This document shows positions 3,601 to 53,000 of a DNA stretch of 64,000 nt, one piece after another. Below the pieces are notes generated by a model. It made no database searches. It was not told where the DNA came from and saw only the letters and a program-made list of their open reading frames with translations. Where the stretch lies: contig NC_049994.1 in NCBI RefSeq assembly GCF_000003815.2, positions 5,500,903-5,564,902 of the forward strand. Direction: 5' to 3'. Numbering within the stretch: position 1 is the first letter of the stretch; each line of letters opens with the position of its first letter. The translations under genes were made by a program, and so were the position numbers. The stretch comes from Branchiostoma floridae (taxonomy: Eukaryota; Chordata; Leptocardii; Amphioxiformes; Branchiostomatidae).

Positions 3601-6600
3601 TATGACTTAACAATCTGCAACCAAAGATCAAGATGCAATTTTGCATACACTTCTTTTGGATTGGGATAATCCATTTGTGCTTACAAGTAGATACGTTTTA
3701 TGAAGAGCTTGCAGTGAACATTACTTTTTTCATAGATGAAGGAACTTTGAGTAATCATATAAGTTGCAAAGTTAACCTAAAGCTTCAGCAAAACTGTAAT
3801 GCAAACCTAAATAGTGATACACACTTTTAAAAAAGGTTTTCTCCTCAGCATAGTAATTATCACCCCCTGTTCAAGAAATGGTACAGTCCAAATCACCTGA
3901 TATGGTATAAGTTTAGCGCCCTCAAAGCAAAGCAGCTGTACTCAGCAACAAGCTCAGCTGTACAGGTGGCCAACAGTACCCTTCTTTCTTCTTTGTAACA
4001 ACGAGAGGGCTCACACCAAAGGCATCATGCAGAAGTTTCTCTACATCCTTCTGTCACTGGCAATCTGCAGTGCCAATGTCATGAGGTGAGGAAACTCTAC
4101 TCGGATACCCGAACAACCTCCAATCTTCGCTAACTATTACTTAGAGTCCAATCTTCGCTAACTTTTAGTTAGAGTCAACTGTAAAATAAGCTACAATTTT
4201 TAGAAAACTAGCAAAATCTAGCCTCGTTTTTGTCTAAGTATGTTTGATCATAATGGAAAGTAAAAACTGATGGACAGCAGACTGACCATGTTTCAGTCAA
4301 AATCGATGTGGACAAATATAGATTTCAATTTTCATAGCTTGATAATTAGCATGTCCACGAATGAGTTTTGCCAGCTGTATTGGTAACTTTGCTGCTAAAA
4401 TGAATTCAAAACAAAAAGGAAACACAAAAAATCTCATTTTTCGTTACTTACTAATAGTTAACTGCAGAATAAAAAAACGCATGGAAATCAATACATTTGC
4501 TGTGTCTAAAGTTAGTAGAGCCTGGTTAGTAGCTTTATACAATATAAGTGTTTTATCGTTCTTGCTTGCTGTTGTCATAAGTATGAACCCTCTACTTGGC
4601 AGTATGTCAGAAGTAGCTGGAGAACTGGAGATCTCTAGATGTAACATAAGTAGATCTAGAAGAAATCTGCTCTTATTTTTGACAGGGACAGTGACCTTGG
4701 TGAAGATGAGGACTGGATGGTGGGAAACGACCTTCACAACCTGCCCCAGCCCATGATCAGCTCCGAGCTGACCACACGGCTGTTCCACATCGAGCAGCAG
4801 CTGACCAACTTTGAAGGTCAGTAGCAGGCCCTAGCTAGTGCATTTGGGGCCAATACACACCATGCTAAATCAGTTCCACTAATTTTCAACTAACGTAGTG
4901 GTGCATAGTGATAATTATCTACTAATGGAGAAAAATCTGAGCAAATATAAAATATTGATATGACACTCCAAACTGACAAACTAATTTCATTGTGATGTTA
5001 AAAGAATTATGTCCCATCAAGGGTACCCTTATAATGCCAACTTTTTACCCTATAGCAGCTGCTATATTTTCAATATTTTCAAGACCCCATTTCACCATCT
5101 CCTGATCGTTACCTCATCATATAACTGGTATACTAAAGTAAGATCCTGGCTAAAACCCTGTTCAAACCATGTCAGAGAGGAAGATTTAGCAACCCCTCCC
5201 TGTAACAATATACCCTGCTACTGAAATAGCGAAGAAACTTACTGCCTCATGTCACAAGTTACATGCCACTACGCTGAACAGAAGTCTGAACAAATCTAAA
5301 CAAACATGTACAAGCGAACACAGGGCTTTAGCCAGCTCGAATTTTTTTTCTGTCAGCCAATTACAATCGTCGCGAAAACCGCCAAAATTAATTAGAAGGA
5401 CTGAACTGAGACCTTGAAAAACGGGTTTTAATGAGATTATCGTATGCGAAAGGGCACCGACACACATTGTCAACAATCATAACAATAGCAAAACAAACAG
5501 TGTGTGGCTATTACGGCCGTGGATGGCGTCCCCAAGCCGCCTGTAGCTTCCACCAAGGATTTTTGTCCGTCAAGGTTGACGGATTGGTTTTAAAATTTTT
5601 CCGTCAGACGCAGCAAATTTCCGTCAATTGACGGAAAAACGGACGCTGGCTAGACCCCTGAGCGAACAAACAAATGCCCTTCCTTCCCCCCCAAAGGAAC
5701 CATGAGCACCCTGCAGGCTGAGCTGTCTGCCCTGAGAGACCGTGTGCAGGTGGAGCGTGAACAGACAGGTGCCTCCTTCAACAACCTGAAGCACCTGCTC
5801 AATAACGAGTACATCCAGCGCAGGTCTAGTCTGGATGAGGTCAACCTCAGTCTCACCTTCCTCCAGGTAGGTACAGTCAAACCTGCCCGAGCGACCACCT
5901 CTTCTCAGCGACCACTTGGCCATTTCGACCGCTTTTTCTCGGTCCCGATTTATTTTCCCATTGACGTAATCATTAAGCAACCTTTTCTCAACGACCACCT
6001 GGCCAACGCGACCGCGACCGGCCCAAATTGGGACCCATAACGACCGCATCATTTTCAAAATTGAGGTTTTCATCGATCTTTGATGATAGCTAGCACGATT
6101 TTGTGCCGAAATCAGCCGGTTTGCGTCGGATTTTGGGGTTAAATTTACAGTTTACAGTGTGCGTGTTGTATTTGACATTAAAGACCTGGCTTCTTTGCGT
6201 GCGTGCAGTGTGCTTGCTATTTGCCATTAAACACAACGGAAACCATTTATACTTTGCATCGGGCATGTTTTGAGTCGATACTCTTCTCAGCGACCACCTG
6301 TCCAAATCGACCGCTTTTTCCCGGTCCCCCGGGTGGCCGTCTTGGGCAGGTTTGACTGTACATGTACAGAACCCAATGTTTCTTTGTCAAACCATCGTTT
6401 ACAGTTCTTTTATACCTGTCAGACAACAGTTATATGATAGTATGTTTTTGTAATACAAAAGATGGGGATTGTTCATTCCTTGAAAAAAACAAAGTGCTGT
6501 TCAGTCAAAACTCTGGGTGAGTCCAATTTTTGTGTTGGATATTACACTTTTACTATTTCAAATATATTTATAATGACTTCTACCAACACAGATGAACTTT

Positions 6601-9600
6601 CAAGTTAAAAGATGGGGATGTCCCTGTACTTCAACTGGTACAAGCCAAACAATTTAGCTCCCAGTTCCAATTAGTTGGTTTAATCCTGGAAATTCAGAAT
6701 ATTTTTTTATTGGAAATTCAGAATATGAAAGATACCAAATTATGGGTCATCTTATATACCATAGCAAAAGCCAAGTGGATCAAGTGCTCCCTTTGCATCC
6801 AGTAGGTTTTGGGCTTGATTCCCTGGTGGCCAAATCACACTGAACATTAGCTACTTCTCTGCTAAGTAGTAATATAGTACTCTGTACATGGAGAATATTG
6901 TAAGTCGAAACTACCATTGCACTACTAGTCCCCCCCCCACCACCACCACACCATAGCCTGAACTTTGTTTTGTTACTGTTGTTGCAGTCCCAGCTTCACC
7001 AGACAGAGAACCAGACTGGTCTGATGGACCAGATCAGACAGGAGCTGTGTCGTGTCACACCAACTCTGGGTACGACCTTACATATTATATTTGTAAATTT
7101 GTTTAATATGATTTAAAGTATGGTAGCAACCTTCCAATTTCCTATCCAAACAGCAGCTATACCCAATAATTATTAAATTTTAACTCGATATTAATTATTT
7201 ACTCTATCAGTCTATGGAAGTCATTTCTAACCCCTCTTTAATTTTCTTTTTTTCTTTAAATTTAGAAGATCCATTTTCTTTAAATGCCAATACTCACTTA
7301 AGTCATAAAATGGCAGCAGAACAAGCACACAAAGTTGTAAAGTTGGAATTCTAACTTGGTATCCAAACACAAAGTTGCAAACTTTAAGCCTTATACCCAA
7401 GCCTATCACAGCTACCAAGTCTTTCCTGTCCCTTACAAAGAGATCGGCATGTTTGGATACCAGGCTGGTAAACTTCACACGGTTGGGTTTTCCTTCACCA
7501 TACAGGTCTGATTGAGCACCTGACCTCACCTGCGGGACACTACCAGTACACCTGGCAGGAGGCCAAGCAGGCGTGCGAGGCTGACGGGGGCCGGCTGGCC
7601 GAGTATCGCGAGCTGTATGCTGAGTACAGGTGAAATCTCTCACTCTAAACTTGCCAGGAAAACATCTTTACAGCTGCTGCATGCGGCTGAGCAATTTTGC
7701 AAGACATACAAAAATATGTCATTAATATGATGAATCAGATATAAAGTAACTGTCTTACTTAAGTAGCTGTATGTGTTAGGCAAACAATTCCCTATTGCCT
7801 TGGGTTACAGGGTTAGAGGTTCATTTTTCCCTATAAGTTAACCCAGGTCATTATACTCAATGTCCCATATGGACCCGCATATACATGTGTAGGTCTCGTT
7901 CTCAGGTTATTGTCAACCATTAGTGAGTAGAGGATCTTACAACTCTGGGAATGAGAGCCACCACATTACCTGGAGGAATAAACTAACTCACTTTGCTCAG
8001 TGGTTTATTCGCTGGTCATAGGAACTGACCTTGAATTAAGACACTGTATACCTTAGGACAGGTCACTAACCCTATACCGAAAACTTTGACTTCTGAAATG
8101 ACTTTGGCTTGAAATGACACCTAACCAAGAAACAATCTTGTTTTATCTGTACAGTGTATCTTGTCTTACAAAGCCTGTATGTCCCTGTAGGCGTGGCCTG
8201 GAGAGGTGCGACTGTGGCTGGCTGGCGGATGGAACGGCCTGGTACCCGATGCACAGCGTGTGGCCCCAGTGTAAGAACGCCCGCGGCATGCACGTGTGTG
8301 AGGAGCAGGGCACCTACAACGCCTGGTGCTGGAAGAAGCTCTCCATCTGCCCCTAGGCACATGGCCAGCATCCGTCCTTCCATCCTTTGACGGAATTTTC
8401 ACATGTCACATGATTTGCATCTGATAGCCACAATGCCTATCAGAAGTTCTTTTACTAGTTTCAGACAAACTGCAACATTTTCATAAAGCTTTTACATGAC
8501 AAATAAGACCCTTGAGGTTCTCTTATCCTTAAAACTTATATGATCTCTTTTCAAATGTCATTTAGATAAAAGTGGCTGAAATTGTTGGTAATACAGATAA
8601 AAGAAAATAAAGCACTAGCAATAGTCTTACTTGTATGTGGTCATTCTTTGTAGCAATGTGAAAAGATCTATGATAGCTAACTAGCTAACTGAGGTATTCT
8701 ATGTCCTTACATCACCTGATCAATATGTTATCAAATAGTAGTGAAATACATATCAACTTTCTCTTTGCTACCTAACCCATAACATCAATACAGTATACGC
8801 TTGCATAACTGAAGTATTACTGTAAATGCAGAAATGTTTGCGGTGGTTTTATGTATCGGATTTCGCTGTGGCCACTTCGCCGTGAACTTAAAACCACCAC
8901 TAACACTCCATTTTCCCGCTACCACTAAAGTAAATTGGATTTCCCCGCGAACTTAAAGGCATTTACAGTAAATCGTATCCCTTCCCACGGTGACTTCAAA
9001 AGAGTTCTCAATAATAAATTTGAAGGATCAAAGAAGCACACACTACGTACTTGACTTTGAAATCAACAAAGCAGAATTTTCTTGTCCTGTCAGCATTTCT
9101 GCAACAAGTGTATTGTAAAGTATATCTTTATTACAGTCAAGAACTTCAACATCATAAAAGTTTGCAGCCTTGTTAGCAATCCTCTTGAACTCTAAAGTCG
9201 GGAACCATAAAAACGAACAAACAATCACAAAAGTCATTGTTCTTTAACAATTCAATGCCAGGCATTACAACTTGTACAGGAAAGAGCAAGCATGATGTTA
9301 CTCATCCACAAATTTCACATCGCAGGGATTTTGGCACTCTTGGTAAAGGTGGACTACAGTGGCGTTGCCAGTACATCTGTTAATACAACAGTTACTACAG
9401 ATGAACCTCCTGAAGAATCAGCAGTCTCAAATGTTGAGCTAGCTTCACAACTAGGGACAATGGAGCATCAGATGTATCTGCTACAAGGTTAGAAAAATTT
9501 TATTATAATACATTTTCAGCCTACCATCAATAATAATAGATCAGAGTGCAGCCCTTGGTTCCAATTAGTCAAGGTAACTGGGAGATCCCAGTTCAATCCT

Positions 9601-12600
9601 GGTTGGGGCTGCACCTGTCTTTTGGAAGGGACGTTTAATATGGGTGTCCCTTGCTTGAGGCAGTGCCTTGAGCACGTTAAAGGGTATTAAAGAACAAGCA
9701 ACCACACCACGTAATAACATACCCTGCTACTGAAACAGCAAGGAAACTTTGCCTTATTTGTTACTAGGCACTGCATGGGTCTGAATGAAAATATTTTGTA
9801 CTAAAGATCTTCATTTAAACTTTATTGCTTCTTTATAAATGAGTAATTTTATAACAGTCATATATAACTTCACCCTCTGAGGACATACATTATGTATAAG
9901 CTGGCTTGAGATCAAAGGAGTATATTGGACTGGCCATAAAAGAAACAACCAGTTAACCTGAAACAATAGTGCCACAAATCATAGCAAACTTGTGAAAGTG
10001 TCAGGAACTCTGGTGGTTGTCAGATTAATATGATGATGAATTAACATTTGGAAAGGAAGAAAAACAAACGTACATGTATGTATGTATGAAAGAAGGAGGG
10101 AAGGAAAGAAAGGAAAAGGGAAAGAAGGAAGGAAAGGGAGGAAGAAAGGAAAGGAAGGAAGGAGGGAAAAGGGAGGGAGGAAGAAAGAAGGAAGGAAAGG
10201 AAGGAAGGAGGGAAGGAAGGAGGAAAGACACAAAGGAAAGATGGAAGGAAAGGGGAAAATTAAAGGGAGGGAGGAAGAAAGAAGGAAGGAAGGAAATGTA
10301 GGAAGGAGGGAAGGAAGGAGGAAAGACACGAAGGAAAGATGGAAGGAAAGGGGAAAATTAAAGGGAGGGAGGAAGAAAGAAGGAAGGAAGGAAGAAAGGC
10401 AGGAAAACAGGTCTTAAAAAGTAAAGATAGATAAAAGGTAAGTAGCATTTTAGAGGCTGTAGGGGTAGTGGAATGTTATCCACTGTGTCTAGGGCACAGT
10501 GTTGGAAGCTAGTCCAACCCTCTCCTTCCACTACCTTTTACTTTTACCTCCCCAACCAAAGTCAGGGACCCATTTTTACAACTGGATGGAGTGAGGAAAA
10601 TTTTGCTAACTACCTTTTCAAAGGGCAAAAAAATTGGTGGCATGTCAGGGGACTCAAAGCCAGGACCTCCGGGTCCTGGGCTTAACACTCTAAGTCTAAC
10701 CATAACAGCAACTCAATGCCATCTAACTTGCCATAACTAATTCATACTTTCATGTTTCAGACCAAGTCAACACATTGCAATTGGAAGCAGAAAATATCTG
10801 GAAACAGTTCTTCTTGGCACAGGCACAGAAGCACAAGAAGTTGGCCAACCTGTACACCCAACTAGCCACACAACAGGCACAGATAGTAGATGCCATGGAC
10901 AACATGGTGGAGGCTGTCAGGTCCTTCAAGGCATCTTCAGCTAAAGCTGAACATCTCCAGACAATGATGGAAAAAGCTTTTTGCTTTGCGACACCACCTC
11001 TCGGTAAGGAAAAGAACAACATTCCTAACCTTCCTTATTCATGGAATCATAGTATGGAGATCCTAGTTGTTGCCTAGTACCTTGGATCTTTTTATGTGAC
11101 TTTTATACCTTGTATTATTTCAAATTGCTTCACTGTTTCACTTTCTGATACATGCAATAAAAATGAGGTAGACACATTTGTGATGCAGTCCTGCCTCCTA
11201 TCAGCTCTTATTGGAATAACACCTACGTGTAGTGCATTATTTTGAAAAATAGTAAGAAGCAGTCATCATTTCCCCAGGGAACTTGCCTCTCCACAAGACA
11301 CATTTGTGGTGCAGTCATGCCTCCTATCAGCTCTCAATGGAATAACACCTACATCATTTTAAAATAAAGTGAGAAGCAGTCATCATTTCCCCAGGGCACA
11401 TCTTCCAGCTTGTCTCTCCTCATCAGCAATAGTACAGTTTAATGGAGGCAGGCACATTTGTAATGCAGTCCTGCCCCCTATCAGCTCTTAAGGGGAACTA
11501 GACCTTTTTTTGTAAAGCATTCTGCAATATTTTAAATACATCAAAAAGTCCAGTTTTTACTTGTTTTACGTTAGTCCATCATAGATTAGCGTTTCCACAA
11601 CATTTGAACTTCACGGCGTTTTGTTGTCAAGCCCGGGAAGTACTGCGACCTTTGACCTCTGTGACGTATTCCGACCGCCAACCTCCATACTGCTAAATAC
11701 GCCAATACGCTATACCACGGCTTTGTCACCACGCTACTCTCCAAATGATGGATTCCGGCGACTTGGAGGGAGTAAACGAGTTTGAGGGCTTTGAGGAGTA
11801 CGAGGGGTTTGACCCACAGAATATAACTCCGTACAACTACCTGCCCAGGCGCCCAGCGAGATCGGCCGAGGAGACTGGGGAGGTCGGCAGGCGCGCCGTT
11901 GGAGCTACTTCTGTCGCCCCGTCGACACATCCAGAACTTATCGAGGCTGTCAGCGTCGTCGAATGGGACGGGACCGATGTTGAAACCTTTCTTGCGGGAG
12001 TTACTACAAACTACGCAGGAAGGCATTGCGCCCCCTCCCCACATTTCAGCTGGACGAACTTGCGGGAAAAAAAAACTCCTATTTTCGTACGTCCTTAATA
12101 CGTTTTGTGCCACAGACGAGGTCGTAACAAACTCTAAATGAAGAGTTCACAAGTTACGGTCCACATTGGCAAGTCCTGGATTGAAAAAGCCGGACTGGAA
12201 AACTTTATTTATACGATAAGTTCCCGCGCAGTCAAGATGTGTGCTGGACGTGCGAGCTGGGGCAGGTTGGTGGTCGGATTACGTCACAGAGGTCAAAGGT
12301 TGCGGTACTTCCCGGGCTCGACAACAAAACGCCGCTAAGTTCAAATGTTGTGGAAACGCTAATGTATGATGGACTAGCGTAAAACAAGTAAAAACTGGAC
12401 TTTTTGATGTATTTAAAATATTGCAGAATGCTTTACAAGAAAAGGTTTAGTTCCCCTTTAATGGAATAACACATAATTTCCTTAGGACACATCTTCCAGC
12501 TTACTCCTCCACATGACCAGTACAGTTTGTCGGAGGCAGACAGGGCATGTAGGGAACATGGTGGCTGGCTGGCTGAATACTCCCAACTCATTAAACTGGA

Positions 12601-14922
12601 CAGGTAATTAGAGTCTAACACAAGGGCCTACATTTGGGGGTGCCATCAATGCTGTACACTAGAATTGGCTGACTGGTTCGCTTTGTGCTACATCCAGTAA
12701 TGCTTAACAATCTGAATGCACCAATTATGCTCTATATTAGATTAGAACAGTCTACAAGTTACATACAACTATAACAACTGGTTACTCTTTATCAGTTTCT
12801 GAAAAAGGGTATGCAGGTCACTTTAAACTACACCCTTCTTTTTTTCATTTGGATATCAAGAGGACCAACTACTAGAGCTTTATTTATGATGCTATGTCGC
12901 AAACCTTGTATGCCATCTTCAGTCAATACGTCTGTATATATTAGCCAGTTTTGTATGAATATTTCAAGCACATTTGACTTATTGCATCCTTTGTATAAAG
13001 AATGGAGATAGCATATCATGTCTGAAGTTCATGGTTACTATAATTCTAATGTTAGGATCTTTAAAATTACGGCAGATATTTAATTGCTCTTACAATCATT
13101 ATAATAGGATGGAGTCTGGACCGTACCACTGTGGTTGGGTAGAGGGAGGAAGAGCATACTACCCAGTCTGGGAGGAGACTGCTAGTTGTCATGGCAACAA
13201 GTGCATCCGCATCAAGACTTGTGACAAAGGAGAGAAACACAGCGCCTGGTGTTTCCAACCCTTGGGCATCTGCCCACATACAGTTCACCAAATGACTGAA
13301 GGATTCATTCCTTAAGTTAGGCATTATCTTTCAGAACTGCATTAACTTGTGCTAAGATATTTGAGTCCACTTTACAAATTTGCTCCAGTTTTTAAAAATA
13401 AACAGGTTTGCAGTAATATAAGATGGTTTGCACCTTTGTGACATTTTCTGCTACCTTGCGCCATTTTGCGAATGTTTTTTGTTACAAGAGTAAGACGACT
13501 GTTAGCACCCCCTCCACTCTATGTACCTTAGTATAGCCCAACAAGAATATTGACTATGGTGTGCTCTCTTAGAACTGATGCCTTACGTAATGCAATCTCT
13601 AATTTCACTGGACTCTGGAGATTCAATGCTAAGTAACCTACAAAATGAAACAGTTTTCATTTTTCAAAAAAATTCCCAATTTCAGGCAACAAATTGGCAG
13701 CATTTTGGCGCTGATTGGCATTGGCTTGTACCACTTACAAATGTAGTGGTGTAGTCCAGTGAGGTGCCCACTTTATGCATTAGTTAAGCTACAGGTCAGG
13801 GCTCGAAATACTTTTTTCTGTATACATGCACTGGTGCAGGTAACATTGAAAATTACTTGCACCAGACAAATTTACCTGCACCACTCTGGTCTTAAGAATT
13901 ATGAATCATACTAAAATTGTTCAGGAACCATGCATCGCTATCTTTTGTTTCATACTTTATCAATGCAGCTAATAACAAATGTCCTAAGATGTAGGTGTAT
14001 ATGGATCATGTATAAAACATAGTACATGGACCAGTGCAGGTTAGGTGCAGGTAAACACCAGAAATACCTGCACAGCTCCAATTTTACCTGCACTAATCTG
14101 CATATGCAGGTGGTATTTCGAGCCCTGCAGGTGCAATATTCATGAACATGTTTGACAGTGAGTGTATTACCTTTCTGGTCTGTCTGTAGCAGGATTTCTA
14201 GCTTGGCACAGAAGCGGTGCAGAGTTGTGTTGTCATCTGTGATTGGCTCCTGGATCTCTGTGAAGTACTGTTGCTTCAACTCAGTGATGCATTCTGGGAC
14301 AGACACAAAGATGTCAATACAAATGTTGTAATGACACACAAGAGAAGAAGAAAAACAAAAAAGCCAGGATTGGACAAGTCCACTAGTCTGATTGTCCAGA
14401 GCAAATGAAAGTGCTGATCGCACAAGTGCATGTCCTACCCCATTTGCCTGATCGGGCAAGTAAGATTTTTCCATGAGCGTGATTTACTTGATACAACTTT
14501 ATGTTACTTTTCACAGTCATGGCATCAAGCATTGGTCAACACAGTAAAATAGAGCCAATGATAAAAGAATTCCATTGATTGCTGGAAGTGAAAAAAAAAT
14601 GTCATTAAAATTTCAGGCAAGTGACAAGTTGGTTTGGGCAAGTTCATTTTCTTATGTACTTTTGTACTAAGCGAATTTTAGAAAACTTTCCATTCCCGAA
14701 TAAAACCCCTCAAATGTATGCTTATGTTGTTCCAATTCATATATATAGTGATATGGTTAATGGTTAAAATAGCAGTTCCAAGCTCTGTGTAGGAAAAATA
14801 AGATGGACATGTAAGACCTTAGACTAGAGACTTGTCTTAGACATTAAAATTCAAACCACATTACCTTCGATGTCTTTGATGAGTTTCTGCACCTGTGGGT
14901 TGGGAGGAGGTGCCGTTGCCAT
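691..14922 (-). CDS. FYCO1: FYCO1-like RUN-domain autophagy adaptor, 5' part
   Basis: Six coding exons (minus strand, 5' to 3'): 14922-14865, 14293-14171, 2712-2600, 1621-1515, 1373-1230, 775-691. They total 630 nt, giving 210 aa with no frame break. The start ATG (14922-14920) begins [19 protein letters not shown]. The translation follows vertebrate FYCO1 closely: [78 protein letters not shown], then a [11 protein letters not shown] linker. Residues about 35-170 form a RUN domain. In vertebrates FYCO1 binds LC3, RAB7 and PI3P and recruits kinesin to move autophagosomes and late endosomes. The coiled-coil, FYVE, LIR and GOLD parts are not in the window, so the gene is cut by the window edge, not broken. 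A 5' UTR acceptor is likely just above 14966. Intron 2 (2713-14170) contains two plus-strand genes. Confidence 0.93.
1790..2015. repeat. Dispersed repeat, inverted copy of 18,190-18,440
   Basis: The block with ggaatgaatgtcttgttagt, a gatgccat core and ggatgtcatccatgaaaatt reappears as its reverse complement at about 18,190-18,440. Both copies contain the phrase aaatttgccatctt or its complement. Family not identified. Confidence 0.5.
2141..2501. mobile_element. hAT-like MITE, 8-bp TSD CATGAAAG
   Basis: The termini are inverted: CAGGGTTGTAGCCAGC on the left and gctggctacaaccctg on the right. The element is flanked on both sides by catgaaag (2133-2140 and 2502-2509), a perfect 8-bp target-site duplication. 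CAGGG ends with an 8-bp duplication are typical of hAT transposons. It has no transposase and lies 99 bp from FYCO1 exon 3. Confidence 0.85.
2811..2905. repeat. TG-rich microsatellite
   Basis: Interrupted gtgtgt/gtctgt repeat. The sequence after it (agcacaactaaaaaa) resembles segments after similar TG tracts near 25,660 and 39,670, so the tract may be the edge of a dispersed repeat. Confidence 0.75.
3906..3910 (+). promoter_or_regulatory. Possible TATA box of first Link gene
   Basis: The sequence ggtataagtttagcgccc lies about 117 bp upstream of the ATG at 4027. A TATAA here would place transcription start near 3936-3940 and give a short 5' UTR. Weak evidence from one motif and its spacing. 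Confidence 0.35.
4027..8356 (+). CDS. Secreted coiled-coil/Link-domain protein A
   Basis: Six exons: 4027-4085, 4686-4816, 5697-5866, 6988-7069, 7506-7629, 8191-8356. All introns are GT-AG with matching phases (2,1,0,1,2). The CDS is 732 nt, 243 aa, stop TAG 8354-8356. Residues 1-17 ([17 protein letters not shown]) look like a signal peptide. Residues about 45-140 are a leucine-rich amphipathic segment that looks like a coiled-coil, with a possible N-glycosylation site at N128. One Cys (141) sits at its end. Residues 160-243 are a Link domain: [20 protein letters not shown], then [12 protein letters not shown] and NAWCW. Link domains usually bind hyaluronan. This copy has the expected cysteines (171, 195, 216, 235) plus extra ones at 197, 225 and 242, so disulfides and ligand may differ. 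It lacks the Ig domain of HAPLN proteins and the CUB domain of TSG-6. It lies antisense inside FYCO1 intron 2, beside a paralogue. Function unknown; probably extracellular. Confidence 0.9.
5171..5265 (+). mobile_element. SINE 3' fragment
   Basis: The phrase ataccctgctactgaaa with surrounding words matches the tail of the tRNA-derived SINEs at about 9,520-9,790 and 48,950-49,440. Truncated copy within intron 2 of Link gene A. Confidence 0.6.
5321..5660. mobile_element. hAT-like MITE, 8-bp TSD AGCGAACA
   Basis: Ends cagggctttagccagc and gctggctagacccctg are imperfect inverted repeats. The 8-bp duplication agcgaaca is perfect (5313-5320 and 5661-5668). Same family as 29515-29863 and 46844-47185, all with the internal phrase gtcaattgacgg or a variant. 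Its right TSD ends 28 bp before Link A exon 3. Confidence 0.88.
5874..6358. mobile_element. TA-flanked inverted-repeat element (Tc1/mariner-like MITE)
   Basis: Termini CAGTCAAACCTGCCC and gggcaggtttgactg are inverted, flanked by TA on each side. Subterminal copies of gcgaccacct occur near both ends. It starts 8 bp after the donor of Link A exon 3, so the donor GTAGGTA abuts the element. Confidence 0.82.
6617..6835 (+). repeat. Degenerate tRNA-derived SINE fragments
   Basis: gatggggatgtccctgtact with ttcaactggtacaag resembles box A of the SINE at 48,950, and a later gggcttgattccctgg resembles box B. Too diverged for exact limits. Confidence 0.4.
8606..8611 (+). terminator. Poly(A) signal AATAAA, Link gene A
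   Basis: AATAAA lies 250 bp after the Link A stop codon, the first such hexamer downstream. Confidence 0.65.
8818..8970. mobile_element. TA-flanked palindromic MITE, copy 1
   Basis: Begins TACTGTAAATGCAGAAATG and ends tttacagta. The inside repeats gcggtggtttta and its complement aaaccacc, so the whole unit is close to a palindrome. Seven full copies lie in this window, plus fragments. Sits between the two Link genes. Confidence 0.85.
9206..9213 (+). promoter_or_regulatory. Possible TATA-like box of Link gene B
   Basis: CATAAAAA lies 86 bp before the ATG at 9292, a position compatible with a short 5' UTR. Motif-only evidence. Confidence 0.3.
9292..13315 (+). CDS. Secreted coiled-coil/Link-domain protein B
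   Basis: Four exons: 9292-9487, 10761-11003, 12486-12603, 13108-13315. Introns are GT-AG, phases 1,1,2. The CDS is 765 nt, 254 aa, stop TAA 13313-13315. The N-terminus is a hydrophobic leader followed by a Thr/Ser/Glu stretch with a possible N-glycosylation site (NTT). Residues about 55-138 are a glutamine-rich amphipathic helix, likely coiled-coil, ending with a single Cys (140) before TPPLG, matching Cys141-TPTLG of protein A. Residues 158-242 are a Link-like domain: [40 protein letters not shown]. The second classical Link cysteine is replaced by Tyr192 while the CGW cysteine (194) is kept, and extra cysteines sit at 218, 224 and 241. It is a diverged tandem paralogue of protein A; both share the phase-1 intron before the domain and the phase-2 intron inside it. 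Hyaluronan binding is uncertain. Confidence 0.88.
9520..9790 (+). mobile_element. tRNA-derived SINE
   Basis: Contains a box-B-like cccagttcaatcctgg, then ttttggaagggacgt and the shared tail ataacataccctgctactga. It matches the SINE at 48,950-49,440. Located in intron 1 of Link gene B. Confidence 0.65.
10084..10405 (+). repeat. Purine-only GGAA/GAAA tract
   Basis: About 320 bp of almost uninterrupted G/A with a larger repeated block: the stretch with acacaaaggaaagatggaag recurs about 112 bp later. Long lysine/glutamate or proline/serine reading frames here are artefacts of this composition. Confidence 0.92.
10455..10695 (-). mobile_element. Probable SINE-like repeat, minus strand
   Basis: The segment ending ctcaaagccaggacctccgg resembles, read on the minus strand, a tRNA-type box B (cctggctttgag) near the start of a SINE. 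Limits uncertain. Confidence 0.35.
11173..11480 (+). repeat. Tandem duplicates with relic copies of Link B exon 3
   Basis: Three units start with cacatttgtgatgcagt or a near copy at 11173, 11299 and 11453; the third continues after a transposon at 12462. Each has tatcagctct and ggaataacac. At 11392-11451 a degenerate copy of the Link B exon 3 acceptor and start is visible: ccccag then codons for GHIFQL, and further on YSLMEA. It has an in-frame TAG, so it is a pseudo-exon. Confidence 0.8.
11492..12457. mobile_element. TTAA-flanked element with ~195-bp inverted repeats, Kolobok-like
   Basis: The terminal inverted repeats start GGGGAACTAGACC and end ggtttagttcccct and stay similar for roughly 195 bp each. 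TTAA flanks both sides (11488-11491, 12458-12461). The empty site is readable from neighbouring tandem copies (agctctcaatgg, agctcttattgg). The middle codes on the minus strand for a short THAP-like stretch (12027 down to about 11900): CVVC, then a PVPFDD and FW-CRR pattern. TTAA duplication, G-rich ends and a THAP finger together fit the Kolobok superfamily. No catalytic transposase region is present, so it is non-autonomous. Confidence 0.7.
13397..13402 (+). terminator. Poly(A) signal AATAAA, Link gene B
   Basis: AATAAA lies about 80 bp after the Link B stop codon, followed within about 35 bp by a TG-rich region. Confidence 0.7.
13797..14127. mobile_element. CTCGAAATA-family inverted-repeat element, copy 1
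   Basis: Ends cagggctcgaaatac and gtatttcgagccctg are inverted. The interior is rich in gcaggtaa/ttacctgc words. A similar copy lies inverted at 24529-24849. CAGGG ends suggest a hAT-like origin, but I see no clean 8-bp duplication. Confidence 0.7.
14365..14697. mobile_element. TTGGACAAGTCC-family element, copy 1
   Basis: Left end caggattggacaagtccact matches the elements at 54613-54950 and 55420-55739, including gtaagatttttccatgag. The right end is eroded. It lies in FYCO1 intron 1. Confidence 0.6.
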
Positions 14923-50010: not shown

Positions 50011-53000
50011 TTAAATACTGTCCGACCTCTCCCGTAGTCTTAAACTCAGCCTGCTTAGGCTCAAACTCATCCCCATGCCTACACCATCAGATAGACTAGA
50101 CACGCTGCCTGTCTCTGTCAGGCTTTCTACGGAGTCCTTTCTCTCTAGATCTGCTTTGATCGCGAGCAAGTCCGCCGACGTGAAGATGCTACCATCGTCG
50201 AGAGGACTGGCGTCCGACTCCGTCAAGTCTAACGATTTTGTCGCGCCGCGGGGAGGTCTGAGGGGAGACCCGGCCCCGGTTCCTGAGTGAGTGTGAGGGA
50301 GGGTCTTATACTCGCCACCCAGGATTCCGGAGTGAGACCTCGGCGCGTACAAGTACGGACTCGGGTTGGACGACGCAGGCCGCTGTAACGAAGACGAAAT
50401 ACCCGGGCTGGAGTGAGACTTGGGCGGAGAGATTCCGTACGCGTATCCCTCCATACTTTTGTTGTCGTTTAACGAGACTGAGTCATCGGCGATCCCCGAG
50501 TCTTTGGAAATCTTACTAGACGACACAGGAGAGAACTGTAGTTTTATCCTGACAGGGTCCACGTTCCTAGGAGGGGAGAGAACTATTCCTTCACTCAGAG
50601 ATGAAACTACAGGACTTGTAGGGCCAGCTGCTACAGGGCTGGTTATCAGCGATTTTTCCTGAGTTATAGAAGAAGTAGGAGAGATTATATTTTCTTGCGC
50701 AACATTGTCCACTTTTCCATCCTCCGTATTCTCTTTCCCTGTTGTGTCATGGATGTCTTTTTGCAGTGTCGTCCCTGCATCCCCTTTCCCTTGGAGTGAG
50801 GAGGGTCGGGGTAGATGTACCGTCTCCCCCACCCCCTGGGGGTCCTCCCGTGACTCCGGGGACCCGGCTTCAGCCCCCACCCCGCTCCCCCGCCTCTCTT
50901 TCCTCTGACGGTGGATGCTCTCGGAGATCTCCTCCAGGTTTTTCAGGGCGAGTGAGTACTCAGTCTTATGCTTCACCACTCCCTTCTCCAACCTCTCAAC
51001 TCTCAGTTTCCTCTCCTGAACATCATAGAAGGAACAGAACACAATCAGAATACTATTCAAAGTCAAACTCAACATGATGCAAGTTAAAAAGTCTTAAGCT
51101 ATCTTACAAATTTTCTATGTCACAAAATCTAACAGACTACAAAAGAAAATGTCATATTAGGACCATATTGAAAAGTCTAAAACAACTTTGAGTTAAATCT
51201 TAGGTGCAAACAACTCATCACCTACCCAGCCACAAAATCATACTTAACATAGTACTTTTTCAATACAGAGATTCAATGTACATAGTACATTCTTTTACAC
51301 GGTTTGAGTACCATTCATAGTACCATTCAGTCTTATGCACAATAATACTAGGTGTCTAGGCCTTTATAGCATGTGATATATACATACATGTTTTTTGTAC
51401 TTCAGGTAACTTGTACAACACTAAATACAGGTGTAAAAATCACAGCATTACTTACATCCAGGTCTTCTTGGATTTTGGCCTTCATCTCAAAGTAGGGTCT
51501 GAAATGACATTTCATAAATATTCTCCAACAAATTTCAAAACTGATCTTCATGTAGTTATATACACACATACACATGCACTATGTTTGGAGGAGCAAGCTA
51601 AAAAAATTATTAGAAATCAGGCTTTATAATTTTCTTCACAACATATTAGAAATGACCATTAATTTTGATTTTCAATTACGTGTTTATTGTTTACACAAAG
51701 GAGGTTCTATATACAGAGCCACCTTGCTTGTTTTAAAGTTAAATCTTTTGGCCTTAGCCACCAGATTTTTTATTCCTAAAAGGTACTGTTGGTACTAAAG
51801 GTGGTATCTCACTGCACAAAGTTGGGGCACCGGTGCGGCACTGCGGGTTTCGAAAAGAAAGATTACTGAACGAATTTCGGAGATAAAGATAGAATTTGCT
51901 TACGTTTTGTTTATTTTGTATTAGGCAATATCTAAAAATCGGCAAAAGTAACACAACAGTGCCTCAAGAGCAGTGAGATACCACCTTAAGATATCCCATC
52001 CTACTCCAAGTTAGTAGTATGTTATTAAGAGTCTTGATTTTGCACAGTAATTTGCTGTTTGAATTTCAGCCGTGGATTATTTGTGTCTACAGATGTTAGG
52101 GCCTGCAAGTTCCCAGAGCATGTAGTACAAAAACAAGGTTGAACTAGAAAAACTGAGGAAAGTTTCAACAAGAATTCTTTTTTTTCCCATTGTGACTTTG
52201 TGAAACCAGTAAAATACATGTATGTCAACATTTGAATATGGAGAAGGTTCAGATTACTGTTTAACATGGTTCAGACAAAATGCTGTCACCGCCGGCTGTG
52301 TTGCAGTCCTTAGTACAGGAAGTTAAACTGCGGCCCACTGTTCACCGTGCTTGGCAAAAAGAGCTAGGGGAATTTCCCTGGCCCAGGTACAATAAACCTG
52401 TAAATACTGTACATACTACATAGCGTCTTTCTTTGACCAGTGGAATAATACTTAGTAGCTTTTCAGTGAGCTTTACTGGTGATCGATATATTTTCCACTT
52501 TTTTCTCTACCACGAATTTACGACACAACAAATATATGTGCCCCCTGTATAACTACTGTAGTGCAGAATTGTTCAACTTGAAATTCAAAACCTCCTTTTT
52601 CCTCCAACACGGAATAAAAACACTGCAAAAGTAAATGGTTTCACAGTATACAGGTTGTAGCTTTTTTCTCTTGCACATGCTAAAAAGGATTTTTAGGACC
52701 AAATTTTTCATGGGGTTTCCAAACATGTGGTCAGCTTTTCTGGTTTAAGAAATGTGCCCTGGTTTGAGAAACGCGCCCTGGTTTGAGAAACGCGCCCTGG
52801 TTTGGGAAACGCACCCTTGTTTGAGAAACGCGCCCTGGTTTGGGAAACGCACCCTTGTTTGAGAAACGCGCCCTGGTTTGGGAAACGCGCCCTGACATAC
52901 TCTGGAAACTTGCAGGTCCAAACACATGTGGAGCGTTACTTACAACAGGGCCAATTGGTGTTGCTGAGTTAGAGCATTGAGCTGTAGCAAACTCCTACGT

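Follow-up and report, generated by a model that had tools for sequence, protein, structure and literature searches.

Link domains and stalked lectins

Link domains are known mainly as vertebrate hyaluronan binders. The classical domain has four cysteines, paired C1-C4 and C2-C3, and folds in a way related to C-type lectins. In aggrecan and TSG-6 it is accompanied by Ig or CUB modules, and CD44 and LYVE-1 are transmembrane receptors that are not known to have a coiled-coil or collagen stalk. The collectins, such as mannose-binding lectin and surfactant protein D, are secreted proteins in which a coiled-coil neck or a collagen stalk is followed by one C-terminal head, a C-type lectin domain with calcium sites.

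Passages of two papers (PMC4574955, PMC11926218) describe a third disulfide in CD44 and LYVE-1 that joins the N- and C-terminal extensions of the Link domain, and the former states that reduction of the groove disulfide of CD44 stops hyaluronan binding. For TSG-6 the groove contacts named in the relevant part of PMC3937638 are Lys11, Tyr12, Tyr59, Lys63 and Tyr78, with Ala49 lining the pocket of a bound sugar ring, and for LYVE-1 the corresponding passage (Bano 2025, PMC11926218) gives Tyr86 as a hyaluronan-contacting groove residue and Trp115 as its neighbour. The expansion of XLINK domains in lancelets is already known because it has been counted, with up to 32 such domains in Branchiostoma belcheri and most lancelet hits placed in a basal clade in the main text of Rosani 2025 (PMC12383584). 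In that main text the words cysteine, coiled and disulfide occur zero times, and the titles and abstract openings among the matches listed for lancelets, invertebrates and Link domains do not describe the cysteine set, or the coiled-coil or collagen Link proteins, that are dealt with here, although Kawashima 2009 and Yoneda 2010 could do so. What appears to be new is the Link variant with added cysteines on a stalk and not the expansion itself.

Two adjacent Link genes

The window is a 64,000-nucleotide stretch of the Branchiostoma floridae genome (NC_049994.1, 5,500,903 to 5,564,902), and within it reconstruction from exon boundaries gives two adjacent genes, A and B, in head-to-tail order on the plus strand; their exon boundaries are GT-AG, and no stop interrupts either reading frame. 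Gene A has six exons (4027-8356) and encodes 243 amino acids. Its signal peptide, called by eye like that of B, occupies exon 1 (4027-4085, with a GT donor after it). The coiled-coil stalk begins in exon 2 (4686-4816), runs through exon 3 (5697-5866) and ends in exon 4 (6988-7069) with Cys141 in a stretch (..LCRVTPTLG) that has its like in 13 paralogs, and the Link domain is divided between exon 5 (7506-7629, with Cys171) and exon 6 (8191-8356, with Cys195, 197, 216, 225, 235 and 242 and the stop). Gene B has four exons (9292-13315) and encodes 254 amino acids, with the signal peptide and the start of the stalk in exon 1 (9292-9487), the coiled coil up to Cys140 (..FCFATPPLG) in exon 2 (10761-11003), the first half of the Link domain with Cys168 in exon 3 (12486-12603), and in exon 4 (13108-13315) the second half, which has Tyr192 for the second classical cysteine, Cys194, 213, 218, 224, 234 and 241, and the stop. 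The rebuilt genes match the gene models and cysteine numbers given in an earlier note on this DNA; the span proposed there, 7506-13315, begins only at exon 5 of A, leaving out the signal peptide and stalk of that gene (4027-7069).

Xlink (PF00193) is the sole Pfam family above cut-off in either protein, with 64.5 bits (1.1e-17) for A and 36.2 bits (7.5e-9) for B against a cut-off of 27. The earlier description, of Link domains that have an unusual set of cysteines and are carried by a coiled-coil stalk, is upheld, and in neither A nor B does any Ig, CUB, EGF or lectin module rise above cut-off, as had been said. The best solved relatives of A by sequence are aggrecan (2.1e-20), TSG-6 (1.9e-11) and LYVE-1 (3e-4), and aggrecan and TSG-6 are also the closest solved sequences for B. 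The TSG-6 Link module and the aggrecan G1 Link domains have the four classical cysteines, as A does, but their aligned stretches have no cysteine at the position of A197 (alanine in TSG-6), and their Ig or CUB modules are absent from A and B. CD44 and LYVE-1, whose Link domain is described as having extensions on either side that a third disulfide ties together, with a 141-242 bond as the proposed analogue in A, match A more weakly, LYVE-1 at the value above and CD44 by profile only. With the collectins A and B have in common secretion, a stalk and a single C-terminal head, whereas that head is Xlink by Pfam with no C-type lectin domain, and collagen is absent from both. The family to which they belong is collectin-like in layout, not a collectin.

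A family of paralogs with added cysteines

When the genome (513 Mb, 431 contigs) was searched with the Link domain of A, 36 places came up with E values of up to about 1; 24 of them are first Link exons of other genes, 42-57% identical. About 25 Link genes here, A among them, thus have added cysteines. Every one of the 24 paralogous Link exons read has CxCGW or CxCAW, and a quirk of A and B alone is ruled out. That the pattern belongs to every Link exon of the genome is likewise ruled out, since two exons of the clusters at 22.9-23.05 Mb on C2 are classical (CFRMGWL and CRYGWLED); these two made up the check, other Xlink places (for example 31.7-32.2 Mb on C2, and C11) lying outside it. An intron at a profile position of about 48 interrupts the Link domain in both A and B. 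Most of the paralogous Link exons match on to about 64, and several classical exons of the C2 clusters also break near 47-48.

A second Link exon was found for 19 of the 24 paralogs (missing for L014, L016, L023, L027 and L034), and cysteines matching A216, 225 and 235 are present in all 19, a count to be read with the search patterns: the one that found 11 of these exons required counterparts of A216, 235 and 242 and left 225 free, whereas the one that found the other eight required 216 and 225 and left 242 free. When one paralog second exon served as query in a plain protein search, 18 places had E values of up to 0.3, among them that exon itself and the one of A. The C-terminal cysteine is present in 13 of the 19; five (L019, L024, L026, L032 and L033) have none before a possible splice site, and these are genes whose stalk ends were not recognised, and L028 is ambiguous. 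Stalk ends with a cysteine hinge like LCxxTPxxG were recognised in 13 paralogs, 11 of them also having the C-terminal exon. All 13 genes for which both ends were read (11 paralogs, A and B) have the stalk-end and the C-terminal cysteine together, a co-occurrence favoured by search patterns that preferred exons with these cysteines, the stalk ends having been sought mostly by cysteine-bearing patterns.

The alignment used below has 15 rows, A, B and 13 paralogs; the remaining 11 of the 24 paralogs were excluded as near copies (L013, L021, L031 and L033), for an unresolved splice (L029 and L030) or as the five with the second exon missing. Eight cysteines in hinge and head are found in each of the nine aligned rows with both ends known. 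Against a strict eight-cysteine rule stand L031, outside the alignment, with an extra Link cysteine (LASCYQL), L028, with one further cysteine (..LKYCK) that was trimmed before alignment as probably beyond the splice site, and the five second exons without a C-terminal cysteine. The longest branch of the tree by a wide margin (2.13) is that of B, which is not placed firmly; B is a divergent member of the family. Scans of viral contigs and prokaryote genomes with a few peptide patterns confirmed no relative of the variant.

Pairing of the cysteines

The cysteines of A are at 14 (in the signal peptide), 141, 171, 195, 197, 216, 225, 235 and 242, so that the four classical ones (171, 195, 216 and 235) plus 197, 225 and 242 are numbered as first reported. 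Those of B are at 140, 168, 194, 213, 218, 224, 234 and 241. The reported exchange of its second classical cysteine for Tyr192, with the CGW cysteine 194 kept, is correct, but Cys218 and Cys224 were missing from the earlier list; with the second classical cysteine lost and Cys218 gained the count in B is even. Across the 15-row alignment the four classical cysteines are present in A and 13 other rows, B having the tyrosine instead, and every one of the 15 has a cysteine at A197/B194 and at A225/B224.

The earlier note suggested that the CGW cysteine has taken over pairing. This is not supported by its place right beside a classical cysteine in A and in all 24 paralogous Link exons read, which means that it needs a partner of its own. 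To judge from conservation, that partner is likely to be the other added cysteine, A225/B224, and the two would act as a pair in their own right because they are invariant in 15 rows and the classical pair is complete in 14. An extra 197-225 disulfide at the groove of A is likely and is the simplest reading, and in B a 213-218 bond, the simplest new pair, may stand in for the lost classical groove pair.

The lone cysteine ending the stalk had been offered as a covalent link between chains, which now seems less likely, given the joint occurrence of the two end cysteines in the 13 genes and the third disulfide of CD44 and LYVE-1. By analogy with that disulfide A Cys141 probably pairs with the terminal Cys242 rather than linking chains, and pairings of A141-242 and B140-241 fit because the extensions of the two receptors are joined in this way. 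Since A shares its cysteine pattern with the many members of a large family, a variant that is consistent in design seems a better description than a fold that has been scrambled, and the earlier interpretation as a whole is partly supported.

The groove and hyaluronan

In one HMMER alignment A Cys197 is aligned with LYVE-1 Tyr86 and Cys225 with Trp115, and in TSG-6 the residue aligned with A197 is Ala49. The family profile puts Cys225 two residues past LYVE-1 Trp115, at TSG-6 Leu82 and four residues past Tyr78 (B224 also falls at Leu82), and counting from the shared cysteine and glycine puts it at the contact residue Tyr78 itself. The place given to A225 in the groove wall therefore shifts by two to four residues with the alignment, and this dependence lowers confidence in the explanation favoured below and in its broader form.

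Of the TSG-6 groove contacts A keeps Tyr12 and Tyr59 and has histidine for Lys11 and serine for Lys63, an incomplete set. Over the 15 rows the Tyr12 position is kept in 14 and the Tyr59 position in 13, and K or R stands at the Lys11 position in five and at the Lys63 position in none. The heads are near neutral (11 K+R and 13 D+E in A), and B is without an equivalent of the CD44 groove disulfide. The main ligand is unlikely to be hyaluronan, given the missing lysines and the almost neutral heads, and for B it is less likely still, that disulfide being wanting too. Some glycan binding by the heads is plausible because the two groove tyrosines are mostly kept.

Stalks and oligomer state

Collagen works as three chains, and the motif R-h-x-x-h-E is a trimer signal. 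Coiled-coil and motif tests covered nine stalks, with near copies left out. The coiled coil of A is strong, being reached by none of 500 shuffles, and that of B, with five of 500, is fair; across the nine stalks the number ranged from 0 to 93 of 500, five of them being reached by 7 to 93. The trimer motif occurs in four of the nine stalks (A, where it reads RLFHIE in exon 2, and three others; none in B) against 0.34 in shuffles, an excess that is inflated, as shuffles do not keep heptads. In one paralog, L022 (C3, 13.95 Mb), 31 unbroken Gly-X-Y triplets replace the coiled coil directly before the hinge LCSVTPKLG (PF01391, 66.3 bits). The collagen-Link gene so formed (600-1060, with the Link exon from about 1487) has eight cysteines in hinge and head, and among the stalks read collagen precedes Link in this paralog only. 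Trimers are likely to be the state of the family because the collagen stalk of L022 implies three chains.

The stalks are not uniform. Those of L025, L031 and L034 are coiled coils for which no in-frame cysteine hinge was found, the reading frame of L025 differing at the stalk end, and those of L017, L018 and L021 have further cysteines. Upstream of the CxCGW Link exon of L023 (C5, 3.36 Mb) there is a trefoil exon (PF00088, 53.3 bits) whose end, judged by eye, agrees in phase with that Link exon. Upstream of a coiled-coil Link paralog on C17 (L066, about 1240-1600, at 5.198 Mb) lies a leader-like exon with an N-terminal cysteine pair, RCAPCNQ, and it is possible that this pair makes inter-chain disulfides.

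Proposed explanation and alternatives

With moderate confidence we favour the reading that A and B belong to a multigene family of secreted proteins with an oligomerising stalk and a normal Link fold with four disulfides, which form collectin-like trimers and for which hyaluronan is probably not the main ligand. Each protein would consist of a signal peptide, then an oligomerising stalk (a coiled coil, or collagen in one paralog) and then a single Link head, and would be secreted. In A the bonds would be the classical 171-235 of the core and 195-216 of the groove, an extra 197-225 on the floor of the groove, a site of contact residues in hyaluronan binders, and 141-242, which would tie the stalk end to the C-terminus as in CD44 and LYVE-1; B would keep 168-234, 194-224 and 140-241, with 213-218 replacing the lost classical groove bond. 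The stalks would trimerise to set three heads on a rod in the manner of collectins, and the three heads would bind repeated ligands multivalently in the matrix, in mucus or on microbes. A broader form of this explanation, to be taken as tentative and somewhat unlikely, is that lancelets evolved a trimeric, collectin-like recognition multigene family with a Link head in place of the C-type lectin, in which a fixed extra disulfide at the hyaluronan groove converted a site for one matrix sugar into a rigid platform for other ligands, perhaps microbial or mucus glycans.

Another pairing of the same cysteines would have Cys194 of B take over bonding with 213, a local 218-224 bond alongside it, and the stalk-end cysteine link chains covalently. 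Spacing allows for this, as Cys194 is two residues from the lost cysteine and a 218-224 bond is possible, parity is satisfied as well, and the RCAPCNQ pair of the C17 paralog makes inter-chain bonds possible; the two added cysteines are, however, invariant in rows that all but one have the classical pair complete, and the end cysteines occur together wherever both ends were read, which makes this arrangement unlikely. Equally unlikely is that these are ordinary hyaluronan binders, in which the extra cysteines merely decorate and stabilise a groove that has kept its hyaluronan binding, made multivalent by the stalk. The wide retention of the two groove tyrosines speaks for it, as does a passage of PMC12383584 in which lancelets are said to have developed hyaluronan binding; yet a cysteine occupies at least one position of the groove (A197), conservation does not extend to the ionic residues, the heads are not basic, and B is without the groove disulfide that CD44 needs according to the passage cited (PMC4574955).

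For B by itself there is also the view that it is a decaying gene, its cysteine change due to drift and not a working variant. Its longest branch, its weaker Xlink score and an element with 195-nt inverted arms in its intron 2 would agree with decay, but the four exons have GT-AG boundaries and no internal stop, one cysteine was lost while another was gained, and the stalk and both end cysteines are kept, so that decay of B is quite improbable.

A large family whose heads have cysteines at or near the place that holds hyaluronan, on collectin-like stalks that include a collagen one, allows a direct test of what a Link domain can bind other than hyaluronan, and of whether its head came to be used like that of a lectin. 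B also illustrates how a Link domain can give up its groove disulfide of the classical set and still have an even number of cysteines.

Surroundings of the two genes

Minus-strand exons of a RUN-domain gene at about 1230-2712 and about 14170-14318 (PF02759, 50.6 bits for the joined pieces) flank A and B, and because they stand on both sides and on the opposite strand the two genes appear to be nested in one intron of that gene. Intron 1 of gene B contains a long GGAA-rich repeat tract at about 10085-10400. In intron 2 of the same gene an inverted repeat at 11490-12458, with 195-nt arms that are 94% complementary and 579 nt apart, looks like a non-autonomous DNA transposon. Further along the window, at 50011-51075 on the minus strand, an open frame has a match to SH3BP5 (PF05276, 34 bits).
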